Below are positions 3,377-48,764 of a stretch of 64,000 bases of DNA, piece after piece; position 1 is the stretch's first letter; every line of letters begins with the position of its first letter. A program made the position numbers and the translations under genes. Under the pieces are notes generated by a model. It saw only the letters and a list, made by a program, of their open reading frames with translations. It was not told the origin of the DNA and did no database searches. Origin of the DNA: Anaerolineaceae bacterium (GTDB taxonomy: Bacteria > Chloroflexota > Anaerolineae > Anaerolineales > Anaerolineaceae); assembly GCA_016841365.1 (NCBI GenBank), contig JAENZI010000005.1:62001-126000 (forward strand), given 5' to 3'.

Positions 3377-4853
3377 AAAACGCCTGATGATTTTCATTTG
3401 GTCCCTGGTTGGGGTAGGGGTGGTGGCAGGGCTGTATCTCTATGCAGGCAAAGAGCCCTTTATCCGCACCACGCTCTCTGGTCTGACGTTGGGGTCACTA
3501 TTCTTCATGGTTGCGGCTGGCTTAACCCTGATCTTTGGTTTGATGGATGTGTTAAATTTTGCCCATGGTGCAATGTTTATGTTGGGTGCTTATATGGGCT
3601 GGCAGCTCTACACCAATCCAACTTTTATTTTTGGCATGCTGCCTGCGCTGCTTGCTTTTAGCACCGGTATTATGATGACATCGGTAATCAAGCCTTACTT
3701 GATTAGATGGGAGATTTCCTCCAAATGGCAAAATTTCCTCCCGAAAGCGGCTTATTTTTTAGCCCTCGTAATCGGTGTTGTGGCTTTTTGGGGATTTGAT
3801 ATTTTACAGCTTGCCAACACGGCCATGGTTGCAGCAACCACAACCACAGCAGGTAACCCGCTTGCTGAAATCAGCGCTCAGGAGCCATTTGTTCAGTTTT
3901 GGTATCGCCCGTTACTTTTGCTGCTCTCAGGGCTGTTAGTCGCCTTCGCTTCATCAAAACCAGGCGTCAAGACTGAGTTTGCACCGCTAGATGAGATGAA
4001 AAGCAAACTTGTCCTTCCAATTGTGTTATTTGGACTGACGATATTGTCCATTATTATCAGGGAATCAGCCCCTGTAGCGATCTTGCTGATGAACGGCAAT
4101 TGGCGTTTTGTGATTTCGATTATTGTCGCAATTGCCTTTGGCTTTTTGTTTGGCGCAATTGTTGAAATCACACTTATCCGGCCGCTGTATGTGCGCTCGT
4201 TCTTTATCGTTTTGATGACGCTCGGATTAAGCTTTGTTATCCAGGAATTGGTGCAGCTTTTGTGGGATCCGTTGGCTTATCAGATGGTCAGGCCGCCGCT
4301 TTTTGCTCAACCCGGTAAAGCTGCGAATCTCATGGAGTGGCTCAGGAATGGAAGCTCCACCATAGATGTATTCGGTGTGACTTTTCCAACATATCGTCTG
4401 TTTGTCATCCTGCTGGGTGTTGTGATGTTTGTTTTCATCACTTTATTGATGACCAAAACACGTCTGGGGATGATCATTCGGGCTGGTGTTCAGGATCCTC
4501 AAATGGTAGAAGCCTTAGGGATCAATGTCAAACGTGTTTTCACCTTCGTCTTTGCACTGGGTGTCGCCATGGCCGCCTTAGGCGGGATTGGTGCTGGACC
4601 TTTCTTGCCGATCCAACCAGCCATGGGTGAACAATATCAGATGCAAGGGTTTATCACAGTGGTCATCGGCGGGATGGGCAGCTATGTTGGCGCTTTTGTC
4701 GGTGCATTTCTGCTGGGAATGGGGCGTGCGTTTGGCGATTATTTCGCATTGAAATTATCGCTCTCGCCTGCTATCGCTGAAGCCTCGACGGTGATTATCA
4801 TGATCATCGTACTGCTGATCCGCCCACAAGGGATCTTTGGAAAGAAGGAGTAA
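3360..4853 (+). CDS. livH: Branched-chain amino acid-type ABC transporter permease LivH, extended
   Basis: A 497-residue inner-membrane permease. The N-terminal part has the LivH hallmark (GLTLIFGLMDVLNFAHGA, near residues 55-72). The C-terminal half from about residue 260 continues with IVEITLIRPLY and VVIGGMGSYVGAFVGA. LivH proteins are usually near 290-300 residues. The extra length is a hydrophobic segment at about residues 85-260 with several more predicted membrane spans. The frame overlaps livF by 17 bases and livM follows after 8 bases, so it is part of the operon and not a chance fusion. Confidence 0.88.
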   Translation: MKPENKKRLMIFIWSLVGVGVVAGLYLYAGKEPFIRTTLSGLTLGSLFFMVAAGLTLIFGLMDVLNFAHGAMFMLGAYMGWQLYTNPTFIFGMLPALLAFSTGIMMTSVIKPYLIRWEISSKWQNFLPKAAYFLALVIGVVAFWGFDILQLANTAMVAATTTTAGNPLAEISAQEPFVQFWYRPLLLLLSGLLVAFASSKPGVKTEFAPLDEMKSKLVLPIVLFGLTILSIIIRESAPVAILLMNGNWRFVISIIVAIAFGFLFGAIVEITLIRPLYVRSFFIVLMTLGLSFVIQELVQLLWDPLAYQMVRPPLFAQPGKAANLMEWLRNGSSTIDVFGVTFPTYRLFVILLGVVMFVFITLLMTKTRLGMIIRAGVQDPQMVEALGINVKRVFTFVFALGVAMAALGGIGAGPFLPIQPAMGEQYQMQGFITVVIGGMGSYVGAFVGAFLLGMGRAFGDYFALKLSLSPAIAEASTVIIMIIVLLIRPQGIFGKKE

Positions 4854-4861
4854 AAAGTTCA

Positions 4862-5980
4862 ATGTCACAAACACCATTAAAGACTAAAAAACCGTTTTTT
4901 CTAAGATTCAAAGACGAGCGCATTCTTCTGATACTTTTTGCTCTAATGCTTGCATTTCCATTTGTGATGAACCTGATTACAGGTTCTGGACTGAATGATG
5001 GCATCACAAAATTCTGGCAGGGGCAGTTGATCATCTTCTTTATCATGGCTGTTTTTGCGATGAGCTATGATCTTTTGATAGGTTTCGGCGGGATACTCTC
5101 CTTTGGGCATGCAGCCAGTTTCGGTGGTGGGGCATATACGTTTGCCCTTCTGATGGAACACTGGGCGCCAAATTTCATAGGCAAATACCGCATTCTGATC
5201 GGAAGTCTTGATATCACAGAGGGCATTGTGTTGCTAATTGTGTTCCTTGCTGTTGTCCTCGTTTCGATTTTAATTGGCTTACTGTTCAGCGCCACTTCTA
5301 TCCGCCTGAAAGGGGCGTATTTTGCCATGCTCACCCTGGCATTGGGGACAGCAATGTTCATCCTCGTCAAGGCGACAGATTTTCATGAGTGGACTGGTGC
5401 AGACGAGGGATTGCATGGTGTATATGTTCCCGATTGGATCAATCCGACGCAAAACCGGTTGACCATCTACCTGATTTCACTTGTCTTCCTGGTCGTCTGC
5501 TACCTCGTGATGAAGCGCATGGTCAATTCGCCGACAGGCAGGGTGATCATCGCTAACCGAGAAAACGAAGACCGAATGCGCATGATTGGCTATAACCCGG
5601 TGCTATATCGCACGATTGCTTTTGTCTCTGCCTCATTTTTCGCAGGTTTAGCAGGCGCGCTTTATTCAATCTGGAACACCAGCGCCACACCGACAATGGT
5701 ATCGGCGGTCACCACTGTGAATGCCTTGATCATGACCATCCTGGGTGGGATGGGCACATTGGTTGGACCTATACTTGGTGCTGCGATCATGCAAACGATC
5801 AGCCAATTCTTCTACACCTGGTTTGGCGCGCGCTGGCCGCTTGTTTTTGGCGTGCTGTTTATCCTGATTGTGATGTTCCTGCCTTATGGCATCATCGGCA
5901 CCTGGCGGATGAAACGTAACGATATTAAAGGCGGCTGGCAGAAACTCCTGCGCCTGCTATCCAAGAAGGAAGATCTTTAG
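4862..5980 (+). CDS. livM: Branched-chain amino acid-type ABC transporter permease LivM
   Basis: A 372-residue multi-span permease and partner of LivH. It contains the family segments YDLLIGFGGILSFGHAA (about residues 63-79), RLKGAYFAMLTLALG and TILGGMGTLVGPILGAA near the C-terminus. It begins 8 bases after livH and ends the five-gene transporter operon; a hairpin follows 23 bases downstream. The first 30 or so residues are polar and basic and precede the first membrane span. Confidence 0.9.
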   Translation: MSQTPLKTKKPFFLRFKDERILLILFALMLAFPFVMNLITGSGLNDGITKFWQGQLIIFFIMAVFAMSYDLLIGFGGILSFGHAASFGGGAYTFALLMEHWAPNFIGKYRILIGSLDITEGIVLLIVFLAVVLVSILIGLLFSATSIRLKGAYFAMLTLALGTAMFILVKATDFHEWTGADEGLHGVYVPDWINPTQNRLTIYLISLVFLVVCYLVMKRMVNSPTGRVIIANRENEDRMRMIGYNPVLYRTIAFVSASFFAGLAGALYSIWNTSATPTMVSAVTTVNALIMTILGGMGTLVGPILGAAIMQTISQFFYTWFGARWPLVFGVLFILIVMFLPYGIIGTWRMKRNDIKGGWQKLLRLLSKKEDL

Positions 5981-40210: not shown

Positions 40211-41116
40211 ATGAAACGAGTATTTTATATTTTGATCGCCCTCTTCATTGTCGCCAGCCTTGGTTTAACAGGCTGCAAAGGCGAAGCTGAATTGGGCACC
40301 GAGGAAAACCCGCTCATCTGGGCGCTGGTTCCCTCTGGCGAGTCCGACACGGTTTTGGCCGGGTTTGATGCTGTCACAGATATCATTTTTGAAGAAACTG
40401 GCATCGTGATTGAACCCTTTGTGGCGACCGAATATGCAGGCGTGATCGAAGCCCTCTCGGCAGATCCACCCAAGGCGCATATTGCCTCCCTGGCAACATT
40501 TGCCTATCTGGTGGCTGCAGAACGCGGTGCGGCTGAAGCCGAATTGGTGGCGGTCCGCTATGGCAGCCCCTCCTACACCGGTCAGATTTTCGTCCGTGCG
40601 GATAGCGGTCTTGAAACACTTGCCGACCTTGCTGGCAAGACCTTCTGCCGCCCTGACCCACTCAGCACCTCTGGCTGGATCATCCCCTCCATCGAACTCC
40701 AGGCTGCTGGCGTCAACCCAGAGACCGACCTGGCTGAAGTTGTGGATGCTGGCTCCCATGACGCAGCAGTTGCAGGCGTCTACAATGGTGACTGTGATGC
40801 AGGCTCATCCTTCGTTGATGCACGCGCCAACCTCGAAGAGGATTACGCAGACATCATGGATGTTTTGAAGGTCATCAATATCTCCGTAGAAATCCCCAAC
40901 GATGGTGTTCAGTACCATCCTTCGGTTTCTCGGGAATTGCGCGACCAGATCAATGCTGCACTGATTGCCATGCCAGAGACTGAAGCAGGCGCTGAAGCGC
41001 TTGACACAGCCTATGAGTGGAGCGAACTTACCCCCAAGGGTGATGATTTCTATGATCCCTTCCGCCAGGTGCTTGATGCCGCAGGTGTTGACATTGAGCA
41101 ATTCATGGGTGAGTAA
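40211..41116 (+). CDS. Phosphate/phosphonate-type ABC transporter substrate-binding lipoprotein (PhnD-like)
   Basis: 301 residues from ATG 40211, which follows AAGGAG; an upstream in-frame ATG at 40142 is unlikely. A signal peptide ends at lipobox LTGC with Cys22. The mature part starts with WALVPSGE and has EALSADPPKAHIASLATFAY and GKTFCRPDPLSTSGWIIPS, the PhnD/PtxB/type 2 binding-protein pattern. It feeds the ATPase and permease that follow. No C-P lyase genes are present in the window, so phosphate, phosphite or another oxyanion is as likely as phosphonate. Confidence 0.88.
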   Translation: MKRVFYILIALFIVASLGLTGCKGEAELGTEENPLIWALVPSGESDTVLAGFDAVTDIIFEETGIVIEPFVATEYAGVIEALSADPPKAHIASLATFAYLVAAERGAAEAELVAVRYGSPSYTGQIFVRADSGLETLADLAGKTFCRPDPLSTSGWIIPSIELQAAGVNPETDLAEVVDAGSHDAAVAGVYNGDCDAGSSFVDARANLEEDYADIMDVLKVINISVEIPNDGVQYHPSVSRELRDQINAALIAMPETEAGAEALDTAYEWSELTPKGDDFYDPFRQVLDAAGVDIEQFMGE

Positions 41117-41211: not shown

Positions 41212-42015
41212 ATGCTTGAAGTCCGGAATTTAACAAAAATTTATGAAGATGGAACCTTGGCTGTCGATAACGTCTCATTCACCGTACCAGATGGTGAATT
41301 TTTGGTTGTTATTGGACTCTCGGGTTCTGGCAAGTCCACACTGTTGCGATGCATCAATCGGCTGATTGACCCAACAGAAGGCGAAATTATATGGAACGGT
41401 GTGGATCTGGCAAAACTTGAAGGTGACGAACTCCGCATGGCCAGGAGAAAGATCGGCATGGTTTTTCAGCACTTTAACCTTGTGGACCGATCAACCGTGC
41501 TTGTGAATATATTAACCGGGCGCCTTGGGTATACAAAAACCTGGCCCTCCTTATTACATCGTTTCTCAAAAGCAGATCGTGATAAAGCCTGGGGAACCCT
41601 CAAACGGTTGGGAATCGAAGACCAAGCACACAAGCTTGCCAGAGAACTCTCTGGCGGGCAGCAACAACGCGTTGGTATTGCAAGAGCACTTATGCAGGAT
41701 CCAGAGCTGATGCTTGCTGATGAGCCAGTCGCCAGCCTTGACCCAGTATTGGCTCACTCGATCTTACAGCATCTTGAGGATCTCAATCAAGAAGATGAAT
41801 TAACTATCATTTGCAGTCTGCATTATCTTGACCTTGTTCAGCGTTATTCAACATCAGTGATTGGCCTGAAGGACGGCAAACTGGTCTATCAAGGCAGTAA
41901 AGAAGACATCCGCAATATGACAGACGAAGAGTTCAAGACCATTTATGGTGAAGAAGCCGTTCGCATCAGTGACACCTCACTTGAGGGTAGTCTTGGAGAG
42001 GTGGTGGAAGCATGA
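41212..42015 (+). CDS. Phosphonate-type ABC transporter ATPase (PhnC-like)
   Basis: 267 residues. Walker A GLSGSGKST (35-43), MVFQHFNLVDRSTVLVNILTGRLG (typical of PhnC), signature ELSGGQQQRVGIARAL and Walker B LMLADEPVASLDP are all intact. It energises the permease that follows, whose start overlaps its stop by four bases. A GGAAGAG site precedes the ATG. Confidence 0.92.
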   Translation: MLEVRNLTKIYEDGTLAVDNVSFTVPDGEFLVVIGLSGSGKSTLLRCINRLIDPTEGEIIWNGVDLAKLEGDELRMARRKIGMVFQHFNLVDRSTVLVNILTGRLGYTKTWPSLLHRFSKADRDKAWGTLKRLGIEDQAHKLARELSGGQQQRVGIARALMQDPELMLADEPVASLDPVLAHSILQHLEDLNQEDELTIICSLHYLDLVQRYSTSVIGLKDGKLVYQGSKEDIRNMTDEEFKTIYGEEAVRISDTSLEGSLGEVVEA

Positions 42016-43562
42016 AAACTAAGAGTAAAGTCTTCAAAGAAGAACCAAATCTCCCCAGCCTGGTACCGCCGTGGTTGGCTGCGTTGTTATCAGCGATTGT
42101 GCCTGGCCTTGGACAGGCATTGGCAAGAGCGGTTCAGCGTGGTTTAGTTATCTTCTTTAGCTTTGTCTCAATCGTTGGGTTGCTTATTTGGCGATTCCGG
42201 CTTGCAGCACCCAGGGACGAAGGATTTTTTAATATTTTCAAAAAAGCTCTTTATCTCGAGCCAATTTTTTACTTTATTACGGCACTTGTAATCCTTCTTT
42301 ATATCTGGATCATCATTGACGCTTATCAGATAGCAAAAAGAGCTGGCGGGCCGAAACGATCAAAACCAATCATGGTTTTCGTTTTCCTGCTCCTGGTGTT
42401 CTTTATCATTGGCTGGCAGATTGGACAAATTGACCTGTATGCTTTTTTCTCACAAGTGGATGATGCTTTACCAGCAATATCTCGAGTGCTCTGGCCATGG
42501 GAACGGGCGATTACCTATCCTGAAGAAATGTGGATGGGTTTGGCAACACTTGAAACACCCTGTGATGGGAATCCGCCACCCCCAACGGAGCCGCTTGAAG
42601 ACCGGCCCTATCTGGTTGTTGATCCTACTTGCGGCATACCCTCAACGCAAGACGAGGCAGAGGATGGTTCAGTCATTGTAGTTCCTGGAACAAAGCTACA
42701 AGTCGAAGGTTATAATTTTGCACCAAACCAGGAGGTTGAATTGTGGTGGCGAGACCCAGCCACCTCCCAATTCCGTCACCGTGAAGCCGGTGAAATCACA
42801 CGGGTCATCCCAGATGATGATGGTTATTTCGAGGTAGATATCACCTGGCCTTATCGCCTGATCCCGGATTCCTATCTTGATGAAACGGTCAACTGGGAAT
42901 TGCAGGGACGCCAAGTAACCAATGTTGGTGATTGGGAATTCAGTGAAGAATTGAAACTGGCCATTGAGAAGATGATAGAAACCATTTTTATCGGCATGAT
43001 GGCGACTTTCTTTGGCATCATTCTTTCTGTGCCATTTAGCTTCTTGGCTGCGAAAAACCTGATGCGCGGCAACCCCTTCACACTTGGTATTTATTACCTG
43101 GTTCGGACTGTTCTCAATATCATCCGTTCAATTGAACCGCTGATCTGGGCGATTATCGCCATTATCATTGTCGGCTTAGGCCCATTTGCAGGCATCCTGG
43201 CGCTGGTGCTTCACTCTATCGCAGCTTTGGGTAAGCTTTACTCAGAGGCGATCGAATCGATTGATCCAGGCCCAATTGAAGCGGTGCAGGCTACCGGCGC
43301 TAACTGGTTCCAAACCGTGATGTATGGGGTCGTCCCTCAAATCATCCCGCCGTTTGTGTCATTTACCATCTATCGTTGGGATATCAACATCCGCATGTCA
43401 ACCGTCATCGGTCTGGTCGGCGGTGGTGGTATCGGCTACCTGCTGACCCAATGGATCAGGATGCTCGATTACAGTGCAGCGGGTATCGCTGTCTGGTTCA
43501 TCGCCATTACAGTAGCCATTCTGGATTACCTCAGTGCTGCAATCAGAGAGCGGTTCGTGTAA
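42012..43562 (+). CDS. Phosphonate-type ABC transporter permease (PhnE-like) with N-terminal membrane and Ig-like extension
   Basis: 516 residues, about twice the usual PhnE length. The C-terminal 200 residues are a standard PhnE permease (ETIFIGMMATFFGIILSVPFSF onward, with EAIESIDPGPIEAVQATGA as the ATPase-coupling loop). The N-terminus has a WLAALLSAIVPGLGQ segment and three or four spans to about residue 138. An exported 180-residue region follows, with an Ig/IPT-like stretch at about 219-280 (VPGTKLQVEGYNFAPNQEVEL). The extension could contact the binding protein or the wall. The stop is followed by a strong terminator. Confidence 0.85.
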   Translation: MKTKSKVFKEEPNLPSLVPPWLAALLSAIVPGLGQALARAVQRGLVIFFSFVSIVGLLIWRFRLAAPRDEGFFNIFKKALYLEPIFYFITALVILLYIWIIIDAYQIAKRAGGPKRSKPIMVFVFLLLVFFIIGWQIGQIDLYAFFSQVDDALPAISRVLWPWERAITYPEEMWMGLATLETPCDGNPPPPTEPLEDRPYLVVDPTCGIPSTQDEAEDGSVIVVPGTKLQVEGYNFAPNQEVELWWRDPATSQFRHREAGEITRVIPDDDGYFEVDITWPYRLIPDSYLDETVNWELQGRQVTNVGDWEFSEELKLAIEKMIETIFIGMMATFFGIILSVPFSFLAAKNLMRGNPFTLGIYYLVRTVLNIIRSIEPLIWAIIAIIIVGLGPFAGILALVLHSIAALGKLYSEAIESIDPGPIEAVQATGANWFQTVMYGVVPQIIPPFVSFTIYRWDINIRMSTVIGLVGGGGIGYLLTQWIRMLDYSAAGIAVWFIAITVAILDYLSAAIRERFV

Positions 43563-48053: not shown

Positions 48054-48764
48054 TTACTGAGTTTTTTGATATCGCTTCCAAAGCCTTGCCAATGTGGTTT
48101 CCAACCGCTGACCCAATGCCGCGCCTTGAGGTGTCGTGACATCATCAGCATTGTCGAATACAGCGTAAGGGACATGATACCCCTGGATGGGCAAATATTC
48201 AGGGTTGCCTGCTATGATCTCGGGCCAATCGGTTTCTTTATAGAGCCGTTCCAATTTTGCATCTGGTAAACCGTGCTCAAGAATACTATCCGGTCGGTCA
48301 GGGTTGAAACGCCTTCTGTTTTTCCGCAGAGACTCTTCCCAGGGGACCTCAATATACAGAATGGCTAAGTGTTCCAATATCTGATCTGAGAGATGATCGA
48401 AAGCCCGTTGAAAACCGCCATGTTCGGAACCGCGGGAAAATTCGATGATGACTGTGTCACCCTCAAAATCGCGCATGAATTTCTGATACTCCAAGCCGAT
48501 GCGTTCGATTAAAACATCCCAAAAATAAATATGCGTGAAATATCCGTCTGGTGTGGAGTGCAGGCGGGGATGGCCCGACTGCTCAAGGATTGCATCTTCT
48601 TCAAACCAGGCCCACAACATTGGAAAATCATCAATTTCTGTAAAATCACCGATATGGAATCTCGTAACTCGCTCTTCCTCAGGTGTGTTTTTAAGATAAT
48701 TGATGATCTCGCTTTTGCCTGCACCTGGTCTTGCAATCAATAAGAGTGTCTTGAAGCTGTCCAT
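48054..48764 (-). CDS. P-loop NTPase, nucleoside/adenylate kinase-like
   Basis: 236 residues. A P-loop is near the N-terminus ([13 protein letters not shown]); the first Gly of the classical motif is replaced by Ala11. Later segments include [21 protein letters not shown] and [19 protein letters not shown], consistent with a kinase-like lid and Walker B-type strand. I do not know the substrate. The gene is divergent from a DUF6485 gene and precedes the MFS gene on the same strand. Confidence 0.65.

Follow-up and report, generated by a model that had tools for sequence, protein, structure and literature searches.

A predicted exported beta-sandwich domain, probably within the first outer loop, of PhnE-type permeases from Chloroflexota and Spirochaetota, and its possible docking role

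Most type I importers lack a large outer insert such as that of MalF, and what this insert is for is, in our own framing, a natural question that a permease gene of an Anaerolineaceae bacterium raises again. Within the window, the stretch of 64,000 nucleotides analysed here, phnE encodes a permease with a long upstream part and a predicted exported domain. A preliminary description of the gene, made from the sequence alone, proposed that the last 200 or so residues were a normal PhnE permease and that everything before them was an addition, consisting of three to four membrane spans and an exported region with an IPT/Ig-like stretch. The questions are where in the permease this domain lies, how widely it occurs and what it may do.

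The gene order at the locus is phnD-phnC-phnE, with phnD and phnC directly upstream of phnE (Table 1), and the neighbour downstream of phnE encodes a DegV protein. PhnD carries an LTGC lipobox, recognised by eye, and its start codon was read from the sequence. The start of phnE lies within phnC in an ATGA overlap of 4 bp, and phnE is one frame. The TIGR01097 match covered PhnE residues 302-515 and profile positions 43-251 of 252, with 260.3 bits against a cut-off of 216.7, in agreement with the view of the last ~200 residues as PhnE permease. The insert-bearing PhnE is a variant of a known importer permease. A similar gene order was found on the Chloroflexota plasmid CP069395 (SDR, NUDIX, thioesterase, phnD-type, phnC, phnE, DegV), where the long protein is annotated as plain PhnE; in the window, whose SDR and thioesterase genes were named by eye, the NUDIX gene is missing and one extra membrane ORF lies ahead of phnD.

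Table 1. Features of the phnDCE locus, in window coordinates; codons are those of phnE
Feature	Codons	Position	Strand	Description or basis
phnD		40211..41116	+	PhnD-type substrate-binding lipoprotein; Pfam Phosphonate-bd 182.5 bits, TIGR01098 176.8 bits
phnC		41212..42015	+	ATP-binding subunit; TIGR02315 316.3 bits, cut-off 266.1
phnE with insert		42012..43562	+	516 aa; TIGR01097 260.3 bits; full length conserved
Short PGLGQ helix pair	20-37	42069..42122	+	AlphaFold2 helices 20-29 and 33-37
Two extra membrane spans, 41-65 and 85-110	41-110	42132..42341	+	AlphaFold2, hydropathy
Probable first span of canonical PhnE, amphipathic helices on the outer side, WPW motif	121-163	42372..42500	+	
Exported beta-sandwich insert with C184 and C207	166-311	42507..42944	+	AlphaFold2, HMM census
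PhnE permease core	319-516	42966..43559	+	TIGR01097, BPD_transp_1

A long ORF of this kind might arise when two genes are joined by an assembly or frame error, and a frame break does occur in one relative: in one genome of the same genus (G009), the long phnE is present as two overlapping frames split near codon 112 (L037, positions 3972-5680, and L116), which reflects a frame error or, alternatively, a broken gene. However, the same continuous ORF was found in 12 other genomes of a set of 61 Chloroflexota relatives, and the complete genome of Pelolinea submarina also encodes it. An artefactual join is thereby ruled out, with negligible residual probability. The 516-aa ORF is confirmed as real and conserved, and the single-frame gene previously argued for from the overlap with phnC stands, since the relatives keep the continuous long form.

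The whole-protein AlphaFold2 model (27 sequences, mean pLDDT 82.6, pTM 0.58) showed short helices at 20-29 and 33-37, spans at 41-65, 85-110 and 121-137, helices at 142-147 and 149-160, strands from 171 to 305, and the permease core from 312. The core aligned with MetI (3tuj_B) at a Z of 19.4 and an rmsd of 2.7 over 205 residues. Residues P31, G32 and G34 were invariant in 27 of 27 sequences of alignment A2, which contains the window protein and 26 of 32 GTDB loci (L100, L111, L116, L121, L124 and L125 were omitted as near-duplicates, split or cut). The helix pair 20-37 is perhaps re-entrant, and a DUF5683 match to this front hairpin was below the cut-off. Since the N-terminus is basic and the stretch 103-120 is K/R-rich, both should be cytoplasmic; from the cytoplasmic side of 103-120, residues 138-311 would lie outside, provided that 20-37 forms a re-entrant hairpin instead of crossing the membrane.

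Several pieces of evidence, each modest, indicate that the helix 121-137 is probably the native first span of PhnE. In intact PhnE, the match to the start of the TIGR01097 profile is interrupted by the insert and is aligned from position 43. When residues 112-168 were joined straight to 302-516, the score rose by 8.2 bits and the match reached profile position 7; with two relatives the gains were 6.0 and 3.8 bits, and positions 4 and 10 were reached. Control pieces from 34-90 changed the score by +0.1, -2.0 and -2.1 bits and a shuffled piece by +1.0, with matches starting at positions 28-54. A profile of 32 canonical Spirochaetota N-termini fitted best, and weakly, to 118-162 (P 0.012). Offered 100-175 alone, the same profile gave P 0.0021, against 0.075 for a reversed control; on segments 1-70, 36-112 and 75-150 it gave P 0.17, 0.088 and 0.022 over 1, 1 and 9 columns, and the profile-profile probabilities for the fit were low (3.5% and 13.3%). 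Among 50 structure alignments with solved importers, judged by end points only, 6 begin at 117-125, with an rmsd of 4.4-7.2 (8wm7_A, 8hpr_A, 8ja7_A, 8y5f_C, 3d31_C and 4tqu_M). On the deletion test, the profile fit and the structure alignments, the most likely site of the exported domain is the first outer loop, after the first helix and directly behind the WPW motif, as an insert and not as a block ahead of PhnE.

This placement revises the first account of the gene in two ways. The exported part would lie in a permease loop, so that the sequence ahead of the last 200 residues would be only in part an addition. Extra spans are indeed present, but only two full spans and a short hairpin are probably extra, 121-137 being the probable first span of PhnE itself. 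With PhnE proteins of TIGR01097, the window protein shares a core over the cut-off, the phnD-phnC-phnE operon and probably also the first span and a WPP-like motif; unlike ordinary Spirochaetota PhnE, it has extra front spans and the exported domain.

The arrangement recalls E. coli MalF, which passages of PMC2246101 describe as having eight spans and an outer domain of 180 residues between spans 3 and 4, with a function called unknown there in 2008. In both proteins, extra spans and then an outer domain of ~150-180 residues precede the main type I core (PMC2246101). The insert of PhnE, of ~145 residues (166-311), probably lies in the first outer loop between the first conserved span, for which support is moderate, and the type I core, as in MalF. 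We take span 3 of MalF to be the counterpart of the first conserved permease helix. Unlike PhnE, MalF pairs with MalG, giving one insert per transporter, whereas two outer domains per transporter are expected here because PhnE is encoded by a single gene. MalG1 and MalG2 of Thermotogales likewise carry a big insert between the first two type I permease spans, but theirs is a hydrophilic region of ~500 residues, far larger and of another family (passages of PMC2246101). MalF was not found by the A3 profile against the PDB at E values up to 10 and was not among the matches listed in the fold searches with the isolated insert; the whole model aligned with MalF (4jbw_F) at Foldseek rank 12 over 550 columns with an rmsd of 19.5, which is uninformative on the insert.

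By analogy with MalF, the following mechanism can be proposed. The PhnD lipoprotein, the PhnC ATPase and a PhnE homodimer would form a type I ABC importer in which each permease subunit carries a short hairpin and two spans added in front and an Ig-like domain, probably disulfide-locked, in the loop between its first and second conserved helices. The two domains would flank the outer mouth as a docking collar, which would keep the lipoprotein PhnD positioned above the entrance and link its closure to the permease. MalF P2 reportedly interacts with MalE throughout the catalytic cycle, if the title of a later paper is a guide. The chance that the insert holds PhnD at the permease in such a MalF-like docking role is put at roughly one in two; the role is plausible because of the MalF-like position and a link to the core that is short in most copies. 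That link, the gap between insert and core, was 9 residues in 52 of 78 copies of the domain and 9-12 residues in 69 of 78. The orientation of the insert is not fixed by the whole-protein model, given its pTM of 0.58.

The fold of the insert was assessed separately. An AlphaFold2 model of 166-312 alone (147 residues, 27 sequences) had a pLDDT of 91.7 and a pTM of 0.83 and contained almost only strands; the exported Ig-like domain claimed at first is thus upheld as a predicted beta-sandwich, and the predicted fold is good, not poor. The best PDB fold matches (VIA) were also beta-sandwiches and were weak (4jw3_A, Z 7.0, rmsd 2.4, 78 aligned; 2cbm, Z 6.9, rmsd 2.7, 83 aligned; 1nco_A, Z 6.9, rmsd 2.2, 78 aligned), with MATH domains at a Z of around 5. 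Foldseek with the isolated insert gave no match at E <= 0.001, and Pfam gave no family over its cut-off for the insert of the window member. As modelled, the insert is a generic Ig-like or beta-sandwich domain of no assigned family. Membership in IPT/TIG (PF01833), which had been suggested, was rejected, with a match in one of 27 members at E 0.03 and none for the window member. Dioxygenase_C matched 4 of 27 members (best E 3.9e-5), with 15.6 bits for the window member, below the cut-off of 27.3, and these matches are taken as a generic beta-sandwich resemblance. Whole-protein phmmer matches to MMS21 chains over 141-230 (E about 0.005) were set aside as chance, and weak PDB matches of the A3 profile, such as CD276 (E 0.015) and the IPT/TIG protein 5e7g (E 0.039), were not accepted as homology.

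The 78 copies come from 77 proteins, with 8 more domain matches left out that lie in ORFs cut before the core. Exactly two cysteines were present in 74 copies, none in two (L129 and L209) and four in one; the remaining copy, truncated at a contig end, has one. Since two cysteines are kept, are lost jointly and occur in even numbers, a disulfide between C184 and C207 is likely, as a prediction from these sequences. Both copies without cysteines are from Spirochaetota, and that of L129 is basic, most others being acidic.

A domain of this kind might instead be regulatory or offer a second binding site, sensing substrate, an ion or, through the cysteine pair, redox state, and gating transport. 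The near-constant cysteine pair and its joint loss in two copies would fit such a role, as would the acidic character of most copies and four nearly invariant charged residues (D83, R92, D103 and R117 in the numbering of the insert fragment). The invariant residues of the insert, however, are P, G, W, F and Q and appear structural. Two copies, moreover, lack the cysteines altogether, and no known binding family scored over its cut-off for the window member. We therefore regard a sensing or gating role as quite improbable and keep docking as the preferred reading.

The domain proved to be far from peculiar to this protein. Long relatives were found in 14 of the 61 genomes (own genome included; one of them, G009, split by the frame break); those in the 13 genomes other than the own one showed 62-81% identity, and the upstream 318 residues are conserved. 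The GTDB collection, which overlaps with the 61-genome set, holds 32 loci encoding a relative of the upstream part, some of them cut by contig ends; 31 are labelled Chloroflexota or groups within it and one is a Spirochaetales MAG. Of 79 distinct PhnE-like ORFs in the collected loci, 72 were positive with an iterated HMM of the insert, a proportion that is no natural frequency because the long protein served as query in finding these loci. Of the seven ORFs without it, three are fragments or broken copies (L065-L067), one is an ordinary short PhnE (L068), and three are fused double PhnE proteins (L049, L050 and L078). A strong PhnE was detected in 107 of 400 Chloroflexota genomes, in short as well as long frames.

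In Spirochaetota, a strong PhnE (E <= 1e-30) was detected in 22 of 296 genomes, and six of these have the long insert-bearing form (G450, G453, G466, G504, G653 and G706); in G489, the PhnE is cut at a contig end. Scored row by row, 52 Spirochaetota PhnE ORFs gave 4 with the insert, 1 truncated and 47 without, where some genes are counted twice and a fused double PhnE accounts for two rows. None of the 32 distinct ordinary Spirochaetota PhnE proteins used for comparison (255-312 aa; chosen at up to 320 aa) had an insert. On plasmids, 1021 records match PhnE; one, CP069395, covers at least 80% of the protein, and the other 24 matches listed start at 312-352. The survey of homologues thus found the extension in many PhnE proteins of two phyla, Chloroflexota and, in six genomes, Spirochaetota, and among those found none has a known function. 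Among the open-access PMC papers listed for PhnE, extensions or inserts, and Chloroflexota, none described such an insert in its title or abstract opening. Many "phosphonate permease PhnE" annotations in Chloroflexota, and some in Spirochaetota, denote a distinct subfamily whose cargo is putative.

Ig-like folds often mediate adhesion, and the domain might bind the cell wall or surface layer and so place or space the transporter, contact with PhnD being incidental. The N-terminal PGLGQ membrane module points the same way, as it is like the front of Chloroflexota LytR-CpsA-Psr wall proteins in 8 of 8 scanned (L074, L077, L082, L083, L087, L090, L092 and L096), as though the phylum used it as a general anchor; yet the likeness concerns mainly the membrane part and not the exported domain. 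In its own genome, moreover, the domain was found in PhnE alone, and in most copies it is tied closely to the core by the 9-12-residue link. It also occurs in Spirochaetota, whose envelope differs from that of Chloroflexota. An envelope-binding role thus appears unlikely, and the docking role remains our preferred account.

The insert is retained through a series of gene architectures. Besides the single long gene (type A), two adjacent phnE genes with an insert in each were found in L043-L046. The proteins of L051-L062 (type D), of ~600 aa, have one insert, followed by some 215 residues of divergent membrane sequence and an almost complete core; they may be fused pairs whose first half has degenerated or, alternatively, one core with a membrane insert, and scoring with the insert HMM fits the former better. 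The proteins of L047 and L048 reach 721-775 aa by the first start codon, and an 899-aa frame in L073 has two inserts in the 739 residues covered. By hhalign, tandem and fused forms carry the same domain (probability 96.6-99.6 for four groups), and no domain match was obtained for group C, which comprises two fused proteins. In loci whose sequence extends upstream, phnD and/or phnC lie beside the long phnE; in L208, phnD was detected and phnC was not. Given that the insert seems to have arisen independently at a comparable loop and that natural forms carry two, one or no copies, the family would offer a clean system for testing insert function.

These forms also bear on a plainer alternative, that the insert merely stabilises the permease or its dimer with no part in docking. 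The domain is less conserved than its carrier, with a mean column identity of 53% against 65% for the whole protein, and no copy was detectable in the fused proteins L049, L050 and L078. Against a mere ornament stand its retention in single, tandem and most fused forms across two phyla, the mostly constant linker and the similarly constant cysteine number, and we consider this alternative rather unlikely. Docking has to face facts of the same kind, as the ordinary PhnE proteins that were scored have no domain and the three fused double PhnE proteins, from the same phylum, no detectable copy.

Co-variation between the domain and PhnD was examined by distance-matrix comparison. A first set of 35 operons of mixed architectures gave a domain-PhnD value of 0.33 (p 0.0005). 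When the 10 operons of L043-L068 were dropped, the partial correlation over 25 operons was 0.246 (permutation p 0.035), and with the four Spirochaetota operons dropped as well, leaving Chloroflexota only, it was 0.155 (p 0.11). In each of the three sets, the domain-PhnC partial correlation exceeded that with PhnD (0.401, 0.479 and 0.553). PhnC is cytoplasmic and its values cannot reflect contact; the analysis does not single out PhnD and was judged uninformative. No charge complementarity between the domain and PhnD was found over 35 operons (r = 0.28, same sign).

As regards the cargo, PhnJ was found in one of the 61 genomes, which is not the own genome; in that genome (G046), it lies on the contig of an ordinary short PhnE (C447, L068) and not on that of the insert-bearing pair (C293). 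PhnX exceeded its cut-off in 6 of the 61 genomes, the own genome not among them, and in 0 of 14 control genomes. The 14 genomes with a long single gene had no PhnJ, and one (G043) had PhnX over the cut-off. PstC is present in the own genome. Since neither PhnJ nor a PhnX over its cut-off was found there, the cargo may be something other than phosphonate, as far as these two markers can tell. Phosphate is the probable cargo of some known PhnDCE systems (passages of PMC10284923 and PMC6469041). The picocyanobacterial PhnDCE (PhnD1) offers a comparison for the window set: passages of PMC10284923 describe genomes mostly without known phosphite or C-P lyase pathways and propose a phosphate importer, and the abstract says nothing on PhnE architecture. 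Solved relatives of the window PhnD are distant, the best being ArrX (6x6b, E 7.9e-18). An S-T-S stretch of PhnD aligns with S-T-S of two PtxB entries and with S-F-S of ArrX, and S-H-D follows; both stretches presumably line the binding pocket.

Taken jointly, the parts would describe a convergent collar like MalF P2, with two disulfide-locked domains per homodimeric importer serving a tethered binding protein, in a family that spans two phyla, has no Pfam match over the cut-off for this member and is kept into tandem and fused genes (some fused forms with a single copy), and with a phosphorus compound other than classic phosphonates as cargo. As a whole, this combined picture is tentative and somewhat less probable than not.

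Several further observations were made around these loci. The pSymB replicon of Sinorhizobium meliloti (L138) has a 501-aa PhnE-like frame with ~200 residues of different sequence before the core, perhaps another independent insert. In four Spirochaetota regions (L206, L207, L208 and L211), the gene immediately after the long phnE encodes a protein of 442-446 aa with an ATP-cone and a uridine-kinase-like part; for the 61 Chloroflexota relatives, the ATP-cone/uridine-kinase-like matches were listed on other contigs or far from phnE. The window also encodes, at 48054-48764 on the minus strand, a P-loop protein of 236 aa, with a motif of 23 residues, for which Pfam gave no match at E values up to 0.01. 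This cross-phylum neighbour has relatives encoded two genes behind the long phnE in the same four Spirochaetota regions, and 19 of the 61 genomes have the P-loop gene, with a phnE within ~13 kb on the same contig in 8 of them, own genome included.
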